From an uncultured Dehalococcoidia bacterium (lineage in GTDB: Bacteria; Chloroflexota; Dehalococcoidia; Lucifugimonadales; UBA1127): a stretch of DNA of 37,043 nucleotides. The position numbers and the translations under genes are program-made. Shown here in pieces: positions 3,497 through 37,043 of this stretch (position 1 is the first letter of the stretch; each line of letters begins with the position of its first letter). The stretch covers positions 1 to 37,043 of the forward strand of contig CAJWXP010000020.1 of the NCBI GenBank assembly GCA_913049785.1. Reading direction: 5' to 3'. The notes below the pieces were generated by a model. The model was not told the origin of the DNA and searched no databases. It saw only the letters and a program-made list of their open reading frames with translations.

Positions 3497-4828
3497 ATGC
3501 TGACCACAGCTGAGAATCAACTGATGACCAGGGTGGGACCAGGGACGCCCATGGGTAACTTGCTCCGTCAGTACTGGGTCCCTGCGCTGCTTTCCTCAGA
3601 GATCGAAGCAGACGGCCCAGCGCGAAAGGTGAAGCTACTTGGTGAAGACCTGGTGGCCTTCCGCGTTACGTCAGGCAGCGTAGGCATGGTGGTACCGCAC
3701 TGCCCGCACCGTGGCGCATCGCTGCACTTCGGTCGCAACGAACATGAAGGCCTGACTTGCGTCTACCACGGGTGGAAGTTCGATGTGAACGGCACATGCG
3801 TGGATATGCCCAACGAGCCCGAGGACAGTCAGTTCAAGGACAAGGTCACCGTAGCCTCATACCCGTGCAAAGAGCGCAACGGCATGATTTGGACGTACAT
3901 GGGCCTTCGAGCAGACCCCCCACCCCTACCAACGTTCGAGTGGAATATGTCGCCTGACAATCCTCCGATCATCTGGCGGAACTTCAGAGCGTGTAACTGG
4001 ATGCAGGCGTTGGAAGGCGACATCGATACCAGCCACATAAACTACCTCCACCGAAGCCTGAACGCCAAAGACCTCTCAACAGTGCCCGGGCGGGGTATGT
4101 CCAGCGCTGCAAGCCTCCAGGACCTTGCGCGCAAGGATGGGGCGCCTCGACTCGAGATAGAGGACATGCCCTTCGGTGTGATGTACTCCGCCATGCGCAG
4201 GATGGGGGATGGCATTGACTACCATCGCATTCACCCATTCCTTTTCCCCTTCCACACCATGATAGGAGGCGGGCTGGACAAGAACGGCGATCTGACTGCG
4301 TTCAACGGCAAGGTCTGGGTACCCGTGGATGACGAGCATACGCTGGTGCTGGAGTACCATTTCCGCCCTGGGAAGCCGTGGACGGATCAGGAACGTCAGC
4401 AGATGATGGAAGCCCGGAATCCCTGGGGTTTTGAAGATGACCGTGGTGAGCCGGGTGGCGGCTGGAAGAGCAAGGCCAACGCTGGCAACCAGTACTTCTG
4501 GGACTATGAGGTGCAACGGGAGAAACTGTATTTCGGTGTGCTGTCCAACCCGCTGCAGGACTCTGCGGTGCAGGAGTCGATGGGGGCCATCTACGATCGC
4601 TCAAATGAACACTTGGGTACGGCTGACGCCATGATCATTCGCGTGCGTAGAAGGTTGATTGAAGCAGCACGGGCTCTAGCAGAGGATGGTTCAATACCGC
4701 CGGGTGTGGACGAGCCTGAAGTGTATGCCATCAGGCCCGTGGGGGCACTGCTCCCTGAAGGCGCAGACTGGCTGAACGAGACCATGGGCAGGCGTGACGT
4801 GTTAGACCAGATCGATCTAGCTCGTTAG
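3497..4828 (+). CDS. Rieske [2Fe-2S] ring-hydroxylating oxygenase, alpha subunit (paralogue 1)
   Basis: 443 residues; ATG preceded by GGAAAGGCGGAG. The N-terminal Rieske domain has CPH (Cys69, His71) and CVYH (Cys88, His91), the four cluster ligands. The catalytic domain has EGDIDTSHINYLH (His180, His185), the HxxxxH part of the mononuclear iron triad. Length and layout match the phthalate 4,5-dioxygenase/vanillate demethylase type (COG4638), cytoplasmic enzymes that hydroxylate or O-demethylate aromatic acids using electrons from a separate reductase. No reductase or ferredoxin gene lies nearby, so a shared partner elsewhere is implied. Paralogues are at 10376 and 36413. The substrate cannot be read from sequence. 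Confidence 0.93.
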   Translation: MLTTAENQLMTRVGPGTPMGNLLRQYWVPALLSSEIEADGPARKVKLLGEDLVAFRVTSGSVGMVVPHCPHRGASLHFGRNEHEGLTCVYHGWKFDVNGTCVDMPNEPEDSQFKDKVTVASYPCKERNGMIWTYMGLRADPPPLPTFEWNMSPDNPPIIWRNFRACNWMQALEGDIDTSHINYLHRSLNAKDLSTVPGRGMSSAASLQDLARKDGAPRLEIEDMPFGVMYSAMRRMGDGIDYHRIHPFLFPFHTMIGGGLDKNGDLTAFNGKVWVPVDDEHTLVLEYHFRPGKPWTDQERQQMMEARNPWGFEDDRGEPGGGWKSKANAGNQYFWDYEVQREKLYFGVLSNPLQDSAVQESMGAIYDRSNEHLGTADAMIIRVRRRLIEAARALAEDGSIPPGVDEPEVYAIRPVGALLPEGADWLNETMGRRDVLDQIDLAR

Positions 4829-6941: not shown

Positions 6942-7547
6942 GAACATGCTAACCTTGACTCTACCCTCGGCGAGGACACGGTCATCGTCAAGGCCGGCAG
7001 CAAGGAAACCATTGAGGCCCTGACGGTAGACGACGAAGTCATTGTGATATTCAAGGACGGAGAGCTTGTTGCAGTGCTGGTTAAGCCGTTACGACAGGGC
7101 CATCGGGACCGTCAGGGTCAGTTTCCACGGCTAGGCGATTCAGGTGACCAGGACGGCTCCCAGCCACGGCTGTTCAACCAGGGCCAAGGCCAGCAGCAGG
7201 GGCGCGGTGGGTTCCAGTTCCGTGGGCCACAGCTTCAGGGACAGTTTTCATTCCGTGGCAACACACCAAAGGCGTTTGGTAACCTTCAAGAGCGATTCAG
7301 TGAGTTACAGGAACGGTTTGGTCGGTTCCAGAGTGAGTCTGGTCAACGCTTCCGTGGCAACGCCCCCGAGATTTTTGGACATCTTTAGGAACGGTTTGGC
7401 GATCTGCAGGAGCGGTTTGGTCGGTTCCAGGATGAGACGCGGCAGCGCTTCCAGGGCGATGCACCTCGTCGTGGTGACCGCAGTGAGAACACAACCCCTG
7501 CTCCAAGCCAGGTGGAACCTGCGCCCGCTGGGAGCACAAACCTCTAA
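6942..7547 (+). pseudogene. Decayed repeat protein with in-frame amber codon and no 5' end
   Basis: A single frame opens after TGA at 6939 and encodes STLGEDTVIVKAGS...VDDEVIVIFKDGELVAVLV, then a Gln/Arg/Phe-rich region. Two 33-residue tandem units share the core LQERFGRFQ. TAG at 7387-7389 interrupts unit 2 exactly where unit 1 has Gln, so a CAG-to-TAG change is the simplest reading. No good start exists upstream; GTG 7044 is the first usable start but lies inside the conserved-looking part. The stop is TAA 7545, followed by a strong terminator at 7568. The N-terminal part resembles the beta-rich domain of Chloroflexota surface proteins, but I cannot name it. Confidence 0.6.
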
Positions 7548-10375: not shown

Positions 10376-11641
10376 ATGCTTACGCACCAAGAGAACATGT
10401 TCATGGCCCAGGTAGGCCCTGGCACGCCAATGGGCGAACTGTTGCGACGCTTCTGGCACCCGGTCCTACTCTCAGAGGAACTGCCGGAGCCTGACTGCCC
10501 GCCCAAGCGCACCAAGATCCTTGGCGAAGAACTCATCGCGTTCCGAGACACCAACGGTGACGTCGGCCTCGTCGACAACTACTGCCCACACCGTCGAGCA
10601 AGCTTGTTCTTCGGTCGAAACGAAGAATCCGGACTGCGGTGCGTTTATCACGGTTGGAAGTTTGACATAAACGGCGATTGCGTCGACATGCCTTCGGAAC
10701 CCGCCGAGAGCAATTTCAAAGACAAGGTGAAGATCAACGCCTACCCGACGCGTGAAGGCGCTGGCATGGTATGGGCATACATGGGACCCAAAGAGCTGCA
10801 ACCGGAAATGCCACAGCTGGAATACCTGGACGTGCCTGAAGACCAGTTCGTCTCCACAAAAGTCATGTATGAGTCCAACTTTGTGCAGGTCATCGAGGGT
10901 GAGATCGATACGGTCCACGCATCGCTCCTCCACAGCAACCTGGACTCCCTGGCTAAGTCTGAATCTGCGACCACAGTAGGAGGACGCTACTCTTACAAGG
11001 ATCGCCCACCACGGTTCTTTGTTGAGGACACGGATAGCGGCATCCTCATCGGCGCTCGACGGGAAGCGGAAGAAGACAGCTACTACTGGCGCATATCTCG
11101 GTGGCTCTTCCCGTACATCACCATGATCCCACGTGAGCCGCAGGGCTCTGCACGTTCCGGCCTTATTGTGCCTATCGACGACGAGAATTGTTGGTTCTTC
11201 TGGGTGCGGTGGAATCCTTTCCGTGCATTGAGCGATGACGAGATCCAGACCTACAAGCTCATGCAGGCCAGCCTAGCACCAGTCACCTATCTTGGGCAGG
11301 CCAACAAGCGCAACGACTATATGATCGATCGGGAGATGCAGCGGACGGTGAACTACACGGGCATCCCTCAGAACAACGCCAGGGCCCAGGATGCGGCGAT
11401 GACGGACAGCATGGGGGCCATTTCCGACAGGGACAACGAACACCTGGGCACCACGGACATGGCTATCATCCGCATGCGACGTCGCCTGATCCAAGCCGCT
11501 CAAGCGCTTCAGGAGGGGACTGAACCCTATGCGGCGTCTCACCCGGAGGTATACAAGGTGCGTTCAGGTGGAGCGGTGCTTCCCAGGGACGTCTACTTCA
11601 CCGATGACGCATCTGTGCAGGAAGACATATTCGTTAAATAG
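10376..11641 (+). CDS. Rieske [2Fe-2S] ring-hydroxylating oxygenase, alpha subunit (paralogue 2)
   Basis: 421 residues from ATG 10376, which follows AAGGGGAGGGCATCC. An in-frame start at 10292 would add 28 hydrophobic residues lying over the promoter, so it was rejected. Rieske ligands are Cys70, His72, Cys89 and His92. The mononuclear iron motif EGEIDTVHASLLH gives His181 and His186. Alignment with paralogue 1 is continuous from the first residues (GPGTPMG...LLR), including the C-terminal SMGAI.DR.NEHLGT...IIR.RRRLI.AA block. Expected activity is hydroxylation or O-demethylation of an aromatic substrate; a separate reductase is required and none is seen here. Confidence 0.93.
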   Translation: MLTHQENMFMAQVGPGTPMGELLRRFWHPVLLSEELPEPDCPPKRTKILGEELIAFRDTNGDVGLVDNYCPHRRASLFFGRNEESGLRCVYHGWKFDINGDCVDMPSEPAESNFKDKVKINAYPTREGAGMVWAYMGPKELQPEMPQLEYLDVPEDQFVSTKVMYESNFVQVIEGEIDTVHASLLHSNLDSLAKSESATTVGGRYSYKDRPPRFFVEDTDSGILIGARREAEEDSYYWRISRWLFPYITMIPREPQGSARSGLIVPIDDENCWFFWVRWNPFRALSDDEIQTYKLMQASLAPVTYLGQANKRNDYMIDREMQRTVNYTGIPQNNARAQDAAMTDSMGAISDRDNEHLGTTDMAIIRMRRRLIQAAQALQEGTEPYAASHPEVYKVRSGGAVLPRDVYFTDDASVQEDIFVK

Positions 11642-18112: not shown

Positions 18113-18219
18113 GAAGTCCAATTGTTCAGTTCGCCCACGCTGCCATAATCTTTGCGCCTAGGATTCGTTTTAGGCTGTAGACTAGGATCCCACAGGTTCG
18201 ACTGGAGTGATAAGCAAAA

Positions 18220-18743
18220 ATGCCAGACGGATCATTCACGCAAGGAACCGCGCTCAGGGCAGGGCTGCTTGTCAGCTCCATAGCGGGGATCGTGGCGGCG
18301 TTGTGGTCTCCCTCCCCCTTGAATCACACCATGATGGCCTGCTGAACACTGGTTCTGTTGTTATTGCGGACCTGGCAACCGGCCTCATTGCTGCGCAGGT
18401 CTGGCGGGTGTTACCGATTGACAGGATGCGACTCTGGACGTTCCTCGCCTTATCATCGGCAACGTTTGGGATAGTCTCTGCATTTCCAGTCATCGCGGAT
18501 AGCCAGATCGATCGTGTTATCTCGTTCATCATGCCCTTGGCGGCAATCACCATCGGCATCTCGGCTGCAGGAACCGTTGCTCTTTCCAACCAAAAGCGAC
18601 TGCTGCGCTGGTGGCTAGTGGTTCCTGCAGTGGTCATCACGCTGGCGGTAGGAGCGGGTCTGGCTTGCAAAGGCGATCAGGAAAGCGGGAGGCTAGAGCT
18701 ACCGCCGAGATTGACGACTATCGATGCGAGTACAATGCCCTAG
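18220..18743 (+). CDS. Multi-pass membrane protein, apparently frameshifted near 18340
   Basis: ATG 18220 follows GGAGTGAT and encodes MPDGSFTQGTALRAGLLVSS, a plausible first membrane helix, but stops at TGA 18343. The adjacent frame (open from 18207 to 18743) continues with four more hydrophobic segments, for example VVIADLATGLIAAQVW, FLALSSATFGIVSAFPV, IMPLAAITIGISAAGTVAL and WLVVPAVVITLAVGAGLA. Its own first ~45 residues look like out-of-frame sequence. A one-base shift would join them into a five-helix protein. It may be a sequencing error or a real inactivation. An untouched product starting at 18207 (178 residues) is the alternative. Function unknown. Confidence 0.55.
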
Positions 18744-18780
18744 TCCAACGTTTAGTGATACAACCACAGGAGAACATCTG

Positions 18781-18882
18781 ATGGTAAACGGATTCCCTTC
18801 ACGAAATATAGCTGTGATTGGGATGTTGCTGTCCACCATGCTGATCATCGCCGCATGTAGTTCTCAGGGTCGAAGTCGCTAA
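18781..18882 (+). pseudogene. Orphaned lipoprotein signal peptide, out of frame with the YceI domain
   Basis: ATG 18781 (after AGGAGAAC) encodes a lipoprotein signal peptide ending in LIIAAC with the Cys codon at 18856, then stops at TAA 18880. The YceI domain downstream is in another frame, whose nearest upstream stop is TAG 18858. A one-base shift between 18858 and 18880 would fuse them. This interval lies entirely within the 39-bp fabF-like patch at 18854-18892. Confidence 0.6.
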
Positions 18883-18892
18883 TTTCTGCAGC
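18854..18892. repeat. 39-bp inverted near-copy of an internal fabF segment (30824-30862)
   Basis: The reverse complement matches 30824-30862 at 37 of 39 positions. On the minus strand it encodes AAEISDFDPENYM; FabF has AAEVSNFDPENYM. Similarity ends abruptly at both edges. Here the patch supplies the lipobox Cys codon and both nearby stops. Confidence 0.85.
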
Positions 18893-18929
18893 ACCCCCTA
18901 CACAGCCTGCAGTCATTGCCGCAACGACA

Positions 18930-19541
18930 GTGCCCGAAGCGCCGACTGTTGTGGCTATCGAACCTACAGCTGAGCCTGAGGGCCCGTTGTTCAACGATTC
19001 ACGCGCCATCGGGAACTTTGATGGCGTGACCTTCATGGTGACTGACGAGTCGGAAGCGACATTCACGGTGGGTGAGCAGCTCACAAGACTGCCGCTGCCG
19101 AACGATGCGGTGCTCAAGACCAACGCAGTGACCGGCGAAGTGTTTCTGGGCGGAAGGCCGTCGTCGATCTCGATTGATATCCACCGATTGAGCAGTGATC
19201 AAAGGTTGCGGGACAACTGGGTGCGGACGCGCATGTTCCCCCAGGACAGGATTGCAACATCCATCCTGAACAATGCAACACCTCTCCCGGATGGATTCAC
19301 CGGCAGTGACGCTGTTACCTTTATTGTTTCCGGGGTACTGGAGATCAGGGGTCTGTCAGTGCCTCTGGAGTTTGAAATGGAGGCCAGGGACGGTGGCGAT
19401 GTGCTGTTCATCCTTGGCAGGACGACATTTGAGTGGTCAGACATTGGGATGGAAGCACCTAACAATCGAGCTACAATATCCGTAGACGACGAGGTTCGTG
19501 TGGAAATCCTCCTGCGGGCTAGGCCTCTGTTGGAGAGTTAA
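18930..19541 (+). CDS. YceI-family domain protein (probable former lipoprotein)
   Basis: 203 residues from GTG 18930, which has no clear ribosome site; the natural N-terminus is probably the out-of-frame signal peptide at 18781. After a Pro/Ala/Glu-rich tether, residues about 30-200 follow the YceI lipocalin-like pattern: SEATFTVGEQL, TGEVFLGG, LSSDQRLRDNWVR, VSGVLEIRGLSVPLEFEME, FEWSDIGMEAP and SVDDEVRVEILLRA. YceI proteins are periplasmic or extracellular and bind isoprenoid-type lipids. Translation may be poor if the frameshift is real. The 3' end overlaps the convergent gamma-carbonic-anhydrase-like gene by 23 nt. Confidence 0.8.
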   Translation: MPEAPTVVAIEPTAEPEGPLFNDSRAIGNFDGVTFMVTDESEATFTVGEQLTRLPLPNDAVLKTNAVTGEVFLGGRPSSISIDIHRLSSDQRLRDNWVRTRMFPQDRIATSILNNATPLPDGFTGSDAVTFIVSGVLEIRGLSVPLEFEMEARDGGDVLFILGRTTFEWSDIGMEAPNNRATISVDDEVRVEILLRARPLLES

Positions 19542-20052
19542 GGACTGCTTCTGCCTTGTACTGACGGCCAAGCTCAACGTAGTGCTCAGCGTTCAACTTG
19601 AACCGCGCCATCTGTTCTTCGCTCACCACGCCCTTCACTTCGGCTGGCACGCCGGTCATGAACGTGTAAGGCGGGACTTTGGCATTCTCTCGGAGCACTG
19701 CGCCTGAAGCAATGAGGCTGAATTCACCGACCTCTGTTGTACCCCCGTTCAAGACAGCGCCGTTGCCGATGACCACGTTGTCGCCGACCCTGTCGGCATG
19801 GCAGAGGACACGATGGCCCATGACCACGTTATCGCCGATGACCGCGCCACGTCCGTCTGAGTGCACGGTGCTGTTGTCCTGGATGCACGTGTTCTTACCG
19901 ATGACGATCTTGCCCACATCGCCGCGTATGACCGTCCCGGGCCACACGCTGCTGCCTGCGTCTATCTCCACGTTGCCCACCACGTAGGCGAACTCGCTGA
20001 TGAACGCGTCCGGGTGAATTATCGGGGTGAAACCGTTCCAAGATCGAATCAT
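19519..20052 (-). CDS. Gamma-carbonic-anhydrase-like left-handed beta-helix protein
   Basis: 177 residues. Hexapeptide repeats run from about residue 20 to 120 (for example VVGNVEIDAGSSVWPGTVIR, IVIGKNTCIQDNSTVH and VIGDNVVMGHRVLCHADRV), forming a left-handed beta-helix that trimerises. The His residues of STVHSD and MGHRVLCHA are the zinc-site candidates of the Cam/CaiE/PaaY group. Whether it is an active carbonic anhydrase is not certain. ATG 20052 follows GAGAGGGATTTA. It is the last gene of the long minus-strand series. Confidence 0.88.
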   Translation of the reverse strand: MIRSWNGFTPIIHPDAFISEFAYVVGNVEIDAGSSVWPGTVIRGDVGKIVIGKNTCIQDNSTVHSDGRGAVIGDNVVMGHRVLCHADRVGDNVVIGNGAVLNGGTTEVGEFSLIASGAVLRENAKVPPYTFMTGVPAEVKGVVSEEQMARFKLNAEHYVELGRQYKAEAVLNSPTEA

Positions 20053-30673: not shown

Positions 30674-31918
30674 GTGAGCGGCGTTCGCGTAGTTGTCACA
30701 GGCATCGGCATCGTAAGCCCCGTAGGACTCACCGTTGCAACGTCATGGGACGCGTTGATCAATGGACGGTCAGGAATAGCGCGCATTGGCGCATTCGACC
30801 CTACCGATTTTGAAACCCACATCGCTGCAGAAGTTAGCAACTTCGACCCTGAGAACTACATGGACCGCAAGGAAGCTCGAAGGGCAGACCGCTTCTCCCA
30901 ACTCGGCCTTGCTGCCGCCGCGGAGGCTGTTGAACAAGCGGGGTTGGTCCAGGATGAACCCCTCGGCAACAGGACATCCTCTCTCATCGCAAGCGGGGTC
31001 GGGGGCATCATCACTCTGTCTGAACAATTCGACGTGTTGCAGGAGAAGGGCCCCAAGCGGATCAGCCCCTTCCTCATCCCTGCCATGCTCATAGACATGG
31101 CTGCTGCCAATGTCTCAATGAAGTACGGCGCAAGAGGCCCCAGTTTTGCAACGGTCTCCGCCTGTGCCAGCGGCGCTGACGCCATTGGGAGTGGATATGA
31201 ATTGATCAAGCGAGGTGAAATAGACGTCGCTCTCTGTGGCGGAACGGAAGCCCCTGTCTGCCCTATCGCGCTTGCCGGGTTCAACTCAGTCGGTGCGCTG
31301 TCGAAGAACAACGATGACCCTGAAGGCGCTTCAAGGCCATTCGATGCCAAGCGCGACGGCTTCATCATCGGAGAAGGCGCGTCCGTGCTGGTGATTGAAG
31401 AGTTAGGCCATGCACTGGCCAGAGGCGCTACGCCGTTGGTGGAGTTAGTGGGTTACGGCGCAAGCTCCGACGCATCGCACATCACCCAGCCAGCTCCTTT
31501 GGGTGAGGGCGGCGGGCGAGCCATGCGTCAGGCGATTGAAAGCGCCAACCTCAAACCTGCTGACGTCGATTACATCAACGCCCACGGCACATCCACGGCT
31601 ATGAACGACAAATTTGAGACCGATGCCATCAAGGGAGTCTTCGGTGAGGGTGCCCATGCAGTAGCTATAAGCTCAACCAAGTCGATGACCGGTCACCTCC
31701 TAGGTGCAGCCGGTGCGATTGAGTCAGCCATATGTGCGATGTCCATAATGAACGGTTGCATCCCTCCTACGATCAACCTTGAGAACCCTGACCCGGAATG
31801 CGACCTGGACTATACGCCCAACAAAGCCCGGCAAACCGAGGTGAACGTGGCTATGACTAACTCCCTGGGATTTGGCGGCCACAATGCCACGCTGGTGTTC
31901 CAGCGGTATCAGGACTAG
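30674..31918 (+). CDS. fabF: 3-oxoacyl-[acyl-carrier-protein] synthase II
   Basis: 414 residues from GTG 30674 after AAGGAGATATAC. It elongates acyl-ACP in type II fatty acid synthesis. The Cys-His-His triad is Cys164 (SACASGADAIG), His304 (NAHGTSTAMND) and His341 (KSMTGHLLGAAGA). No acpP or other fab gene is adjacent, but a DegV protein precedes it. Residues 51-63 (AAEVSNFDPENYM) are encoded by the segment copied in inverted form at 18854-18892. Confidence 0.96.
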   Translation: MSGVRVVVTGIGIVSPVGLTVATSWDALINGRSGIARIGAFDPTDFETHIAAEVSNFDPENYMDRKEARRADRFSQLGLAAAAEAVEQAGLVQDEPLGNRTSSLIASGVGGIITLSEQFDVLQEKGPKRISPFLIPAMLIDMAAANVSMKYGARGPSFATVSACASGADAIGSGYELIKRGEIDVALCGGTEAPVCPIALAGFNSVGALSKNNDDPEGASRPFDAKRDGFIIGEGASVLVIEELGHALARGATPLVELVGYGASSDASHITQPAPLGEGGGRAMRQAIESANLKPADVDYINAHGTSTAMNDKFETDAIKGVFGEGAHAVAISSTKSMTGHLLGAAGAIESAICAMSIMNGCIPPTINLENPDPECDLDYTPNKARQTEVNVAMTNSLGFGGHNATLVFQRYQD

Positions 31919-31933
31919 CGGGTCTATCACGCC

Positions 31934-33667
31934 GTGACGCTTGAGGGTTCGGTACCTCGCCCTCTCTGGACGGTGGCGTCTCCGGTTCCCGACGATGTAG
32001 TCGCTGCACTCGGCATGCCCCGTCTGTGGGCGCAGGTCTTGTACAACAGGGGCATTCAGGACGCTGAGACCGCCCAGGATTTGCTAGACGCCACCCAAAA
32101 CGCCCTCCACGACCCTTTCCTGTTCGATGACATGGATATCGCTGTGCGTCGCATTCTGCAGGCAATACGCGACGGCGAGACCATCGGGGTGTTCGGCGAC
32201 TTTGATACCGACGGTGTTACGGCAACTGTGCTGCTCTATGAGTCGTTGCGAGCGCTGGGCGGCACCGCCATCGCACACATCCCCCATCGCGTCAGGGACG
32301 GACACGGTCTCAACATCGACGCCGTCAACGACATGCGAAGTCGCGGCGCAACGCTGGTCATCACCGTCGATTGCGGCATCACCTCCGTGGAAGAAGTCAG
32401 GGCAGCCAAAGAGCTGGGCATGGAAGTCATCCTGACGGACCACCACGCCCCGTTGACGGGTCTCCCGGACGCCTACGCTGTCGTGACGCCACGTCGAGCT
32501 GTGGACGCATACCCGTTCCCCTTCCTCACCGGAGCTGGGATAGCTTTCAAGCTGGTACAGGCGCTCCATCAAGTTCAAGAAACAGAAGTGTCAGAAGGCG
32601 CTCTGGAGCTTGCTGCCCTGGGCACGGTGGCAGACATGGCCCCTTTGCTTGGTGAGAACCGCGCCCTGGCTACGCTGGGCTTAGCAGAGTTGCGACGCAC
32701 GAAGCGCCCGGGGATGTTGGCGCTACTAGAGGCCGCCCATACCACAAGCGCATCGCTCGACCATGAATCGATACCCTTTGTCATCGCGCCTCGGCTGAAC
32801 GCTGCAGGCCGCATGGACACTGCCGACCTGAGCTTTGATATGCTGACCGCGCCAGACATGGACACAGCACGGGAGCTTGCAGCGCAGGTGGAGCAGTTGA
32901 ACCAACAACGTCGTGAGTTGACCGGAACATTGGTTAAAGAAGGCGTTGAGCAAGCATCACAGCAGGTTAAAGGTGAATCGCTCATCTTTCTGGCCAGTGA
33001 GGAGTTTGAACCTGGCGTCAGTGGCCTTGTGGCTGGTCGATTGGTCGAGCGGTTCTATAGGCCAGCCATCGTGGTTTCCATTGATGGTGACATCGCACGG
33101 GCGAGCGGACGAAGCATCCCGGAGTTCAACCTGGGTGAAGCGCTGGCATCGTGCGAGGAGCTTTTCCATCGATTCGGCGGTCATCCGGCAGCGGCCGGGT
33201 TCGTCGCCGACAAATCCAACCTTGAAGCCATCAAAGATCGATTGCAGGCGTTGGCCCGCGAGCAGCTGAAAGACATCGCGTTGGAGCCAACGTTGAAAAT
33301 CGACGCACAAGTCGACTTCAAAGACGTGCTGGGAGAGACATACAAGTTCCTTCGGTCGCTGGCACCCTTTGGACAGGAACACCCAGCGCCGTCGTTCCTT
33401 GCTCGAAACGTGGAGGTGACAGACCTCCGGCAGATGGGCACAGAGGGCCAGCACATGCGTTTGACCCTGCGACAGAGCGGCGCGAAGTGGGACGCCGTAG
33501 CATTCAATCAGCGATGGCCGGAGGGACTAAGCATGCCGGGGAACTCTAATGGGCAGAACTCCAACATGCCTCCAATTGATGTCGTATACATTCCGGAGAT
33601 CAACAACTTCAACGGTCGCAGCACCATGCAATTTAGACTGCTGGACCTCAGAGCCTCGGAGGGCTAG
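31934..33667 (+). CDS. recJ: Single-stranded-DNA-specific exonuclease RecJ
   Basis: 577 residues from GTG 31934, 15 nt after fabF, with no strong ribosome site. RecJ degrades single-stranded DNA 5' to 3' in recombination and mismatch repair. DHH-family motifs are GVFGDFDTDGVTA (Asp89, Asp91, Asp93; the usual DYDxDG appears as DFDTDG), ITVDCGIT, LTDHHAPL and, in the DHHA1 domain, RFGGHPAAAGF. The C-terminal OB-fold ends normally. It overlaps the convergent acetyl-CoA synthetase gene by 4 nt. Confidence 0.95.
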   Translation: MTLEGSVPRPLWTVASPVPDDVVAALGMPRLWAQVLYNRGIQDAETAQDLLDATQNALHDPFLFDDMDIAVRRILQAIRDGETIGVFGDFDTDGVTATVLLYESLRALGGTAIAHIPHRVRDGHGLNIDAVNDMRSRGATLVITVDCGITSVEEVRAAKELGMEVILTDHHAPLTGLPDAYAVVTPRRAVDAYPFPFLTGAGIAFKLVQALHQVQETEVSEGALELAALGTVADMAPLLGENRALATLGLAELRRTKRPGMLALLEAAHTTSASLDHESIPFVIAPRLNAAGRMDTADLSFDMLTAPDMDTARELAAQVEQLNQQRRELTGTLVKEGVEQASQQVKGESLIFLASEEFEPGVSGLVAGRLVERFYRPAIVVSIDGDIARASGRSIPEFNLGEALASCEELFHRFGGHPAAAGFVADKSNLEAIKDRLQALAREQLKDIALEPTLKIDAQVDFKDVLGETYKFLRSLAPFGQEHPAPSFLARNVEVTDLRQMGTEGQHMRLTLRQSGAKWDAVAFNQRWPEGLSMPGNSNGQNSNMPPIDVVYIPEINNFNGRSTMQFRLLDLRASEG

Positions 33668-35823: not shown

Positions 35824-36412
35824 ATAACCCTGTAGCCACTAAGGTCACAAAACAAAGCTGGGGCGCTCAATCGAGCGCCCCAGCTTTTTCTAACTCATTA
35901 ATGTCTTTGCCAGTGAAATGAAACAATTCGAATTCTTCGCTCGTTCTTCGACAGGCTCAGGATCACTATTGAGAAGTGAGACGCAATTGACCCCTTTCCT
36001 ATTTGATGAAGAGACTATTAGGGTCTCCAAAAGGGAATCCTTAAGGAGACCCGCTTATGTTTCAGTTTGTAGCTTCGCGCAGAGGACTAGGCTTTTGGAG
36101 GATCAGAAGAGAGTCGGCTACTCTCACAGCATATTGGAATTGTAGCGCTTGATAGAGGCCCTCGAACAAGCTTTCGACTAAGTCTCATTAGCCAGAACCG
36201 GATGGAACCCATCAGAAACCACCCTCACCACACCTAATATCAATTATTTGCATACTGTATATCCCGCACAACTGATTGACATGGTTATCACCAAAGCGCA
36301 ACATATCTGGCCATGACTACCTAGATCTACTGTTAAGAACTAACCTTCATTTATGGAACGAGGTTCCAAATTCCTAACCCGTGACGTTATCCAGTCCCTA
36401 AGGAGATGACCT
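35824..36412. other. Intergenic region before Rieske oxygenase 3
   Basis: After the terminator at 35854 no gene is evident. TTCGACAGGCTCAGGA at 35947-35962 resembles a small interspersed motif seen in many bacterial genomes. A possible -35 TTGACA is at 36276, but without a good -10. Short frames here (for example 35918-36145) have no supporting features. Confidence 0.5.
35854..35890 (+). terminator. Rho-independent terminator after the DUF1059 gene
   Basis: AAAGCTGGGGCGCTC (35854-35868) and GAGCGCCCCAGCTTT (35873-35887) form a perfect 15-bp stem with a 4-nt loop, followed by TTC. The symmetry allows action on both strands. Confidence 0.92.
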
Positions 36413-37043
36413 ATGCTCTCAGCAAGTGAAAATGCGCTAGTAACTCAGACAGGACCAGGGACGCCCATGGGTGATGTCATGCGGCGATTTTGGCATCCGT
36501 TTCTTCTGAGTGACGAGTTGGAAGAGCGGGACGGGACTCCGGTCAGAGTAAAACTGCTTTCGGAGGAACTTGTTGCCTTTCGGGATACCAACGGTGATGT
36601 GGGGCTCTTGAAAGAGCGATGCCCGCATCGTGGAGCATCCTTGTTCTTCGGTATCAACCAGGAATGTGGGCTGCTCTGTACCTATCACGGATGGAAGTAT
36701 GATGTGAACGGCAATTGCATTGACATGGCCTCTGACCTGCCGGGAAGCAACACAAAGGTCAAGGTTCATGCGGTTTCATACCCCACCCATGAGTCCGCTG
36801 GTGTTTTGTGGACATATATGGGCCCTGCTGACAAACAACCACCACCACCAAATTTCATGTTCAATAATGTGCCACCTGAGAACGTAATGGCAATCCGGGT
36901 CCCTATCTACTGCAACTACCTCCAAGGGTTGGAAGGCAACATAGACTCAACTCACCTAGGTACTCTCCATGCCAGGTATGAACATGCAACGCCGGTGGAC
37001 ACTGAGACTGACGTGCCCGGCTACTGCTCACCTAACTTCACCT
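36413..37043 (+). CDS. Rieske [2Fe-2S] ring-hydroxylating oxygenase, alpha subunit (paralogue 3, 3' end outside window)
   Basis: ATG 36413 follows AAGGAGATGACCT; 210 codons to the edge, no stop. Rieske ligands are Cys70, His72, Cys89 and His92; EGNIDSTHLGTLH gives the mononuclear iron His181 and His186. The N-terminus MLSASENALV...GPGTPMG aligns with paralogues 1 and 2, and a 21-bp DNA stretch (36451-36471) is identical to paralogue 1 (3539-3559). Electron partner and substrate are unknown. The C-terminal half, including the last iron ligand, is outside the window. Confidence 0.93.
   Translation, partial: MLSASENALVTQTGPGTPMGDVMRRFWHPFLLSDELEERDGTPVRVKLLSEELVAFRDTNGDVGLLKERCPHRGASLFFGINQECGLLCTYHGWKYDVNGNCIDMASDLPGSNTKVKVHAVSYPTHESAGVLWTYMGPADKQPPPPNFMFNNVPPENVMAIRVPIYCNYLQGLEGNIDSTHLGTLHARYEHATPVDTETDVPGYCSPNFT

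Follow-up and report, generated by a model that had tools for sequence, protein, structure and literature searches.

A gene for a YceI-domain lipoprotein in the genome studied here (G000, a draft of 2.15 Mb in 77 contigs, ~93% complete) carries a 39-nt patch that matches, in reverse complement, an internal segment of the fatty-acid synthesis gene fabF 11.9 kb away. We regard this patch, with a probability of roughly 0.7, as an in vivo templated replacement bounded by microhomology, of the kind termed short-patch double illegitimate recombination (SPDIR), and as recent relative to the split between G000 and the closest relative, G003. The patch is a new instance of an already known but seldom observed kind of bacterial mutation, and its effect was most likely the loss of an exported YceI lipoprotein.

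A repeat search of the window (the whole stretch of DNA analysed, 37,043 nt) returned a single inverted pair of at least 24 nt, namely the patch and its fabF counterpart (Table 1). The two align without a gap and differ at two positions: 18877, where the patch has C and the fabF reverse complement has T, and 18883, where the patch has T and the fabF reverse complement has C. Scored at +1 for a match and -2 for a mismatch, the pair reaches 33, whereas none of 20 second-order Markov simulations exceeded 20, and the patch pattern, with up to 3 mismatches allowed, found 0 matches in 100 dinucleotide shuffles. Together, the shuffles and simulations rule out a chance origin; the earlier note, which had reported the 37/39 reverse-complement match and called chance negligible, was borne out on both points. 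Searching the 181 bases around the patch against the whole of G000 returned two places only, the patch itself and fabF. The patch, present in a single copy, connects two ordinary genes, and similarity ends abruptly on both sides. Exact scans of a genome-contig and a viral-contig collection gave 0 matches to the patch or to the fabF segment.

The fabF segment is the native copy: the gene is intact, and the stretch is kept in relatives, where the counterpart of its AAEVSNFDPENYM reads AAEVSDFDPENYM in G003, AAEITDFDPTNYM in G002 and AAEIPEFDPTNYM in both G001 and G004. A second fabF paralogue, which the earlier note had proposed looking for, was rejected as donor, since the only other fabF-like gene found in G000 matches the patch at 24/39 positions. 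Directly downstream of fabF lies an intact recJ (31934–33667), the product of which degrades single strands.

Table 1. Coordinates of the patch, the genes it connects and the other loci described in the text. Positions refer to the window unless a locus (L) is named.
Feature	Position	Strand	Description
Lipoprotein remnant frame	18781–18882	+	33 codons; signal peptide, lipobox IAAC; ends at TAA in the patch; read from the sequence and orthologues
Patch	18854–18892	+	39 nt; reverse complement of fabF 30824–30862 at 37/39 positions
Left end word TGTAGTTC	18856–18863	+	Common to fabF (reverse complement) and the intact G003 lipobox; probably native microhomology
Core between end words	18864–18883	+	20 nt, as compared to 57 nt in G003; strictly foreign; holds TAA 18880–18882 and mismatches 18877 and 18883
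Right end word TTCTGCA	18884–18890	+	Also in fabF (as CTTCTGCA) and in the G003 gene; microhomology, probably native
YceI-domain frame, same gene	18861–19541	+	Open in another frame, without signal peptide; PF04264, E 4.3e-8
fabF	30674–31918	+	Intact, 414 aa; ketoacyl synthase domains PF00109, PF02801
Source segment in fabF	30824–30862	+	Codons for AAEVSNFDPENYM; A at 30839 is the derived base
comEC remnant	L101 1519–1899 (G000:C8); L102 1501–1683 (G003:C43)		
dprA	L064 1216–2341 (G000:C13); L098 1291–2406 (G003)	minus (L064)	
Dispersed hairpin repeat	L054 18702–18755; L060 8036–8090; L043 17447–17491		

The recipient gene begins like a lipoprotein gene, with AGGAG followed by an ATG at 18781 and a signal peptide ending in IAAC. 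Three of its landmarks fall inside the match: firstly, the lipobox Cys codon (18856–18858); secondly, a TAG in the YceI frame (18858–18860); thirdly, the TAA that ends the ATG frame (18880–18882). The G003 orthologue, found in the same neighbourhood, is a single frame of 276 codons without the patch, and the orthologues of G001, G002, G004 and G005 each have one open frame with a lipobox-like start. The gene is therefore intact in all five of the closest relatives examined and broken in G000, which upholds the earlier reading of a broken YceI lipoprotein and answers the proposal to compare the gene in related genomes. Among the 147 genomes of the order, 97 (G000 counted) have more distant homologues, and an in-frame stop is present in four of the matches listed from outside the genus. 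Between G000 and G003 the YceI domain shows a dN of 0.17 and a dS of 1.16 and has kept its open frame, which fits a recent loss. A YceI-domain search of the genome-contig collection confirmed no relative.

Two other origins were rejected. A sequencing indel does not account for the break, as the patch is gap-free against fabF and an extra base in the run of five C at 18894–18898 would leave the TAA at 18880–18882 in the ATG frame; and the 39 nt are not ancestral lipoprotein sequence, being absent from the G003 gene, with one open frame in the other relatives. The gene upstream of the lipoprotein (18207–18743), hypothetical and membrane-like and without a Pfam match, evolves fast, with 48% amino acid identity to G003 as compared to 87–93% for argS and a hexapeptide-repeat protein nearby.

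The ends of the match give clues to how it arose. When the fabF 39-mer is compared with the first 302 nt of the G003 gene, the longest common words are two 8-mers, TGTAGTTC and CTTCTGCA. One lies at either end of the patch, and their order is that of the G003 gene, where TGTAGTTC sits at the lipobox Cys codon and CTTCTGCA ~60–64 nt further on. The right word is 8 nt long if base 18883 is included (C in fabF and G003, T in the patch) and 7 nt without it. As a control, we masked the lipoprotein gene and searched every other 39-mer of the window on either strand, 72,410 in all: 19 contained two end words of this kind, and 5 of the 19 are registers of this same fabF locus, leaving 14 chance pairs among 72,405 39-mers outside the fabF registers. 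Most simply, then, the ends of the match would be sequence that the lipoprotein gene already had, and probably only the ~19–20 central bases are strictly foreign. Given that fabF and G003 share the end words and their order, the lipobox Cys codon probably predates the event.

Between TGTAGTTC and TTCTGCA there are 57 nt in G003, which serves here as a proxy and not as the parent strain, and 20 nt in G000, a difference of 37 and hence a frame shift of one. As a substitute for the ancestral linker G003 is imperfect: dS between the two fabF genes is 1.15, and the linker between the Cys and the FND motif, counted by hand, comes to 131 nt in G000 and 183 nt in G003, so that a further 15 nt of difference lie elsewhere, in frame. 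The earlier description of a 39-bp patch with sharp ends, carrying both the Cys codon and the breaking stops and possibly made by templated insertion or strand switching, needs to be amended in this light. Similarity does stop at once outside the match, fabF is the source, and the Cys codon and stops all lie inside it, but the event looks like a replacement bounded by microhomologies and not an insertion of 39 bp, and the Cys was most likely native and not brought in by the patch.

The two mismatches bear on the order and age of events. Read in the fabF sense, the mismatch at 18877 sets GAC (Asp) in the patch against AAC (Asn) in the resident gene. Of 32 fabF loci examined, 5 from the genus and 27 from the order, the motif used missed 4 and left 28 to score; this codon begins with G in 25 of the 28 and with A in 3, namely G000 and two genomes from other families of the order. 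The patch thus likely holds the older base and the resident fabF a derived one, so that the patch is not a copy of the contig's present fabF: either the resident gene changed after the copy was made or another strain supplied it. The mismatch at 18883, adjacent to the right word, could belong to the native sequence of the lipoprotein gene; taken as a donor base it would give ATT as compared to the resident GTT, and among the fabF genes A at the equivalent site occurs only in G001, G002 and G004. There is no synonymous difference between the patch and the resident fabF, as compared to the dS of 1.15 between the fabF genes of G000 and G003, which suggests that the event is recent relative to the split of these two genomes.

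The same mismatches weigh on the main rival to an in vivo patch, a chimera formed during DNA amplification, library preparation or assembly, with the fabF of a co-occurring related strain as second template. G000 is after all a draft in 77 contigs, and chimeras of multiple displacement amplification (MDA), as described in PMC1855051, are mostly inverted joins primed at short complementary words, as the join is here. An MDA chimera would, however, copy the sample's own fabF unchanged, and the patch differs at two positions from its only near match in the genome, which disfavours the simplest amplification or assembly artefact; as something other than the contig's own fabF was copied, such a chimera requires a second strain. 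It also requires two joins 39 nt apart, whereas the MDA chimeras described in that study are single joins, and 337 of its 406 inverted chimeras span less than 10 kb, as compared to 11.9 kb here (PMC1855051). No second clear case was found in 837 kb of G000. With the patch holding at 18877 the fabF base of most relatives and the resident gene the derived one, the chimera option raised by the earlier note is weakened, and we consider it unlikely.

If the patch formed in vivo, its donor could also have been a sister strain, the same segment having been acquired by transformation and not copied within the genome. The base at 18877, which differs from the resident fabF, would fit such an uptake, and SPDIR is presented as a process concerning transformation in PMC7192050. 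A later change in the resident fabF nevertheless explains the base difference equally well, and the competence genes are decayed in the G000/G003 pair. Of comEC, matched over the whole Pfam domain in G001, G002 and G004, a C-terminal remnant is left, of ~130 residues in G000 and 61 in G003; dprA is split over three frames in G000 and has two in-frame stops in G003, as compared to one frame in G001 and G002, while G004 has one unbroken match and a second, split one. An intact comEC and dprA were thus not found in G000, in an assembly ~93% complete. The decay of both genes makes an intragenomic source more likely than uptake; uptake of foreign DNA is unlikely, and we judge the sister-strain route improbable.

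DprA and RecFOR reportedly suppress such microindels in Acinetobacter baylyi. Loss of DprA might then have raised the rate of templated patches in G000 and G003 and turned the lineage into a natural mutator; if so, the broken lipoprotein would be one product of short-patch illegitimate recombination. We surveyed 837,043 bases of G000 (~39%) and 800,000 bases of G004 for pairs within the sampled parts. The G000 sample yielded 44 short non-palindromic pairs, 8 of them with a single partner on both sides, and the pair of fabF and the lipoprotein gene is, by eye, the only clear patch among these 8. The others look by eye like tRNA genes (checked with aragorn in the first G000 sample), repeat families, gene-start paralogues or shared coding motifs, apart from one inverted pair with 34/38 matches (L103 2917–2954 and L116 6427–6390), which was left unassigned. 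Beside this pair, no second clear patch was found in the 837,043 bases, and the 800,000 bases of G004, with 433 pairs of which 6 have single partners, contained no clear patch. One clear case in 837,043 bases does not support a high rate of patches in G000, and with none in 800 kb of G004 a mutator lineage appears improbable.

Nor does the patch appear to have been kept for a purpose. Over 39 nt the transcripts of the two genes would be complementary save for one mismatch and one G-U pair, and the patch, when read in the YceI frame, looks like an ordinary lipoprotein linker, so that one could imagine the lipoprotein transcript pairing with and regulating the fabF mRNA, or the linker being reached by frameshifting. 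The patch is, however, absent from the G003 gene, the frame is unbroken in the relatives, and the predicted fold of the region is no better than that of shuffles (z 0.37). No promoter-like or terminator-like match was found in 18600–19700, and by eye no slippery heptamer was seen in the overlap of the two frames (18861–18879). A role of the patch beyond gene loss is without support, and we give a functional patch next to no credence.

Several other repeats were observed in the window and the genome. Three related stretches of 111 nt are ~71% alike (3701–3811, 10583–10693 and 36620–36730); the first two lie within long frames that read by eye like Rieske-type oxygenases, and the third is near the contig end. 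Two tandem units of 99 nt at 7251–7448 are 72% alike and rich in F-Q-R codons, and their frame stops in the second unit. A near-perfect palindrome of 34 nt occupies an intergenic site at 35854–35887, and a dispersed repeat with a GGCCTG-GGGCCAG hairpin beside TTTAGTC recurs on several G000 contigs.

We return to SPDIR as the preferred reading. Under it, a short single strand of fabF (antisense) would have annealed to the lipoprotein gene through two fortuitous microhomologies, one at the lipobox (TGTAGTTC) and the other further on (CTTCTGCA), and would have been built into the chromosome, so that the sequence between the words was replaced by ~20 nt of fabF. The new sequence would have shifted the frame and brought in the TAA, and the exported YceI lipoprotein would have been lost. 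We take this explanation to include a double template switch at a replication fork, the trace of which would be identical.

Harms et al. are said to have described SPDIR in Acinetobacter baylyi under selection, in 2016. In SPDIR a short intragenomic or extragenomic segment replaces local sequence at microhomologies, leaving the source intact and a cluster of changes at the target. The name itself appears in PMC7192050, and the original paper (Harms et al., 2016) is cited by title in PMC6321871. The present case shares the near-identical segment (37/39) and the intact source, as well as microhomology at both junctions, in the form of the 8-nt words common with G003 as proxy for the ancestor. 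It differs in being one wild event, deduced from sequence and set in a genome with decayed comEC and dprA, and not one under selection in Acinetobacter baylyi. Replication template switching is similar in that a copied inverted segment replaces local sequence with clustered multinucleotide changes, but the cases reported in the accounts we drew on mostly involve short-range or local inverted repeats, and the template here is 11.9 kb away.

To our knowledge, templated short patches have been described mainly in laboratory mutants obtained under selection. The present one is long and sits in a wild genome, and with its donor, its junction words and a base by which the events can be ordered it makes a useful worked example. 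It also cautions that, where environmental genomes contain frameshifted genes, some of these may reflect genuine templated mutation rather than faulty assembly.
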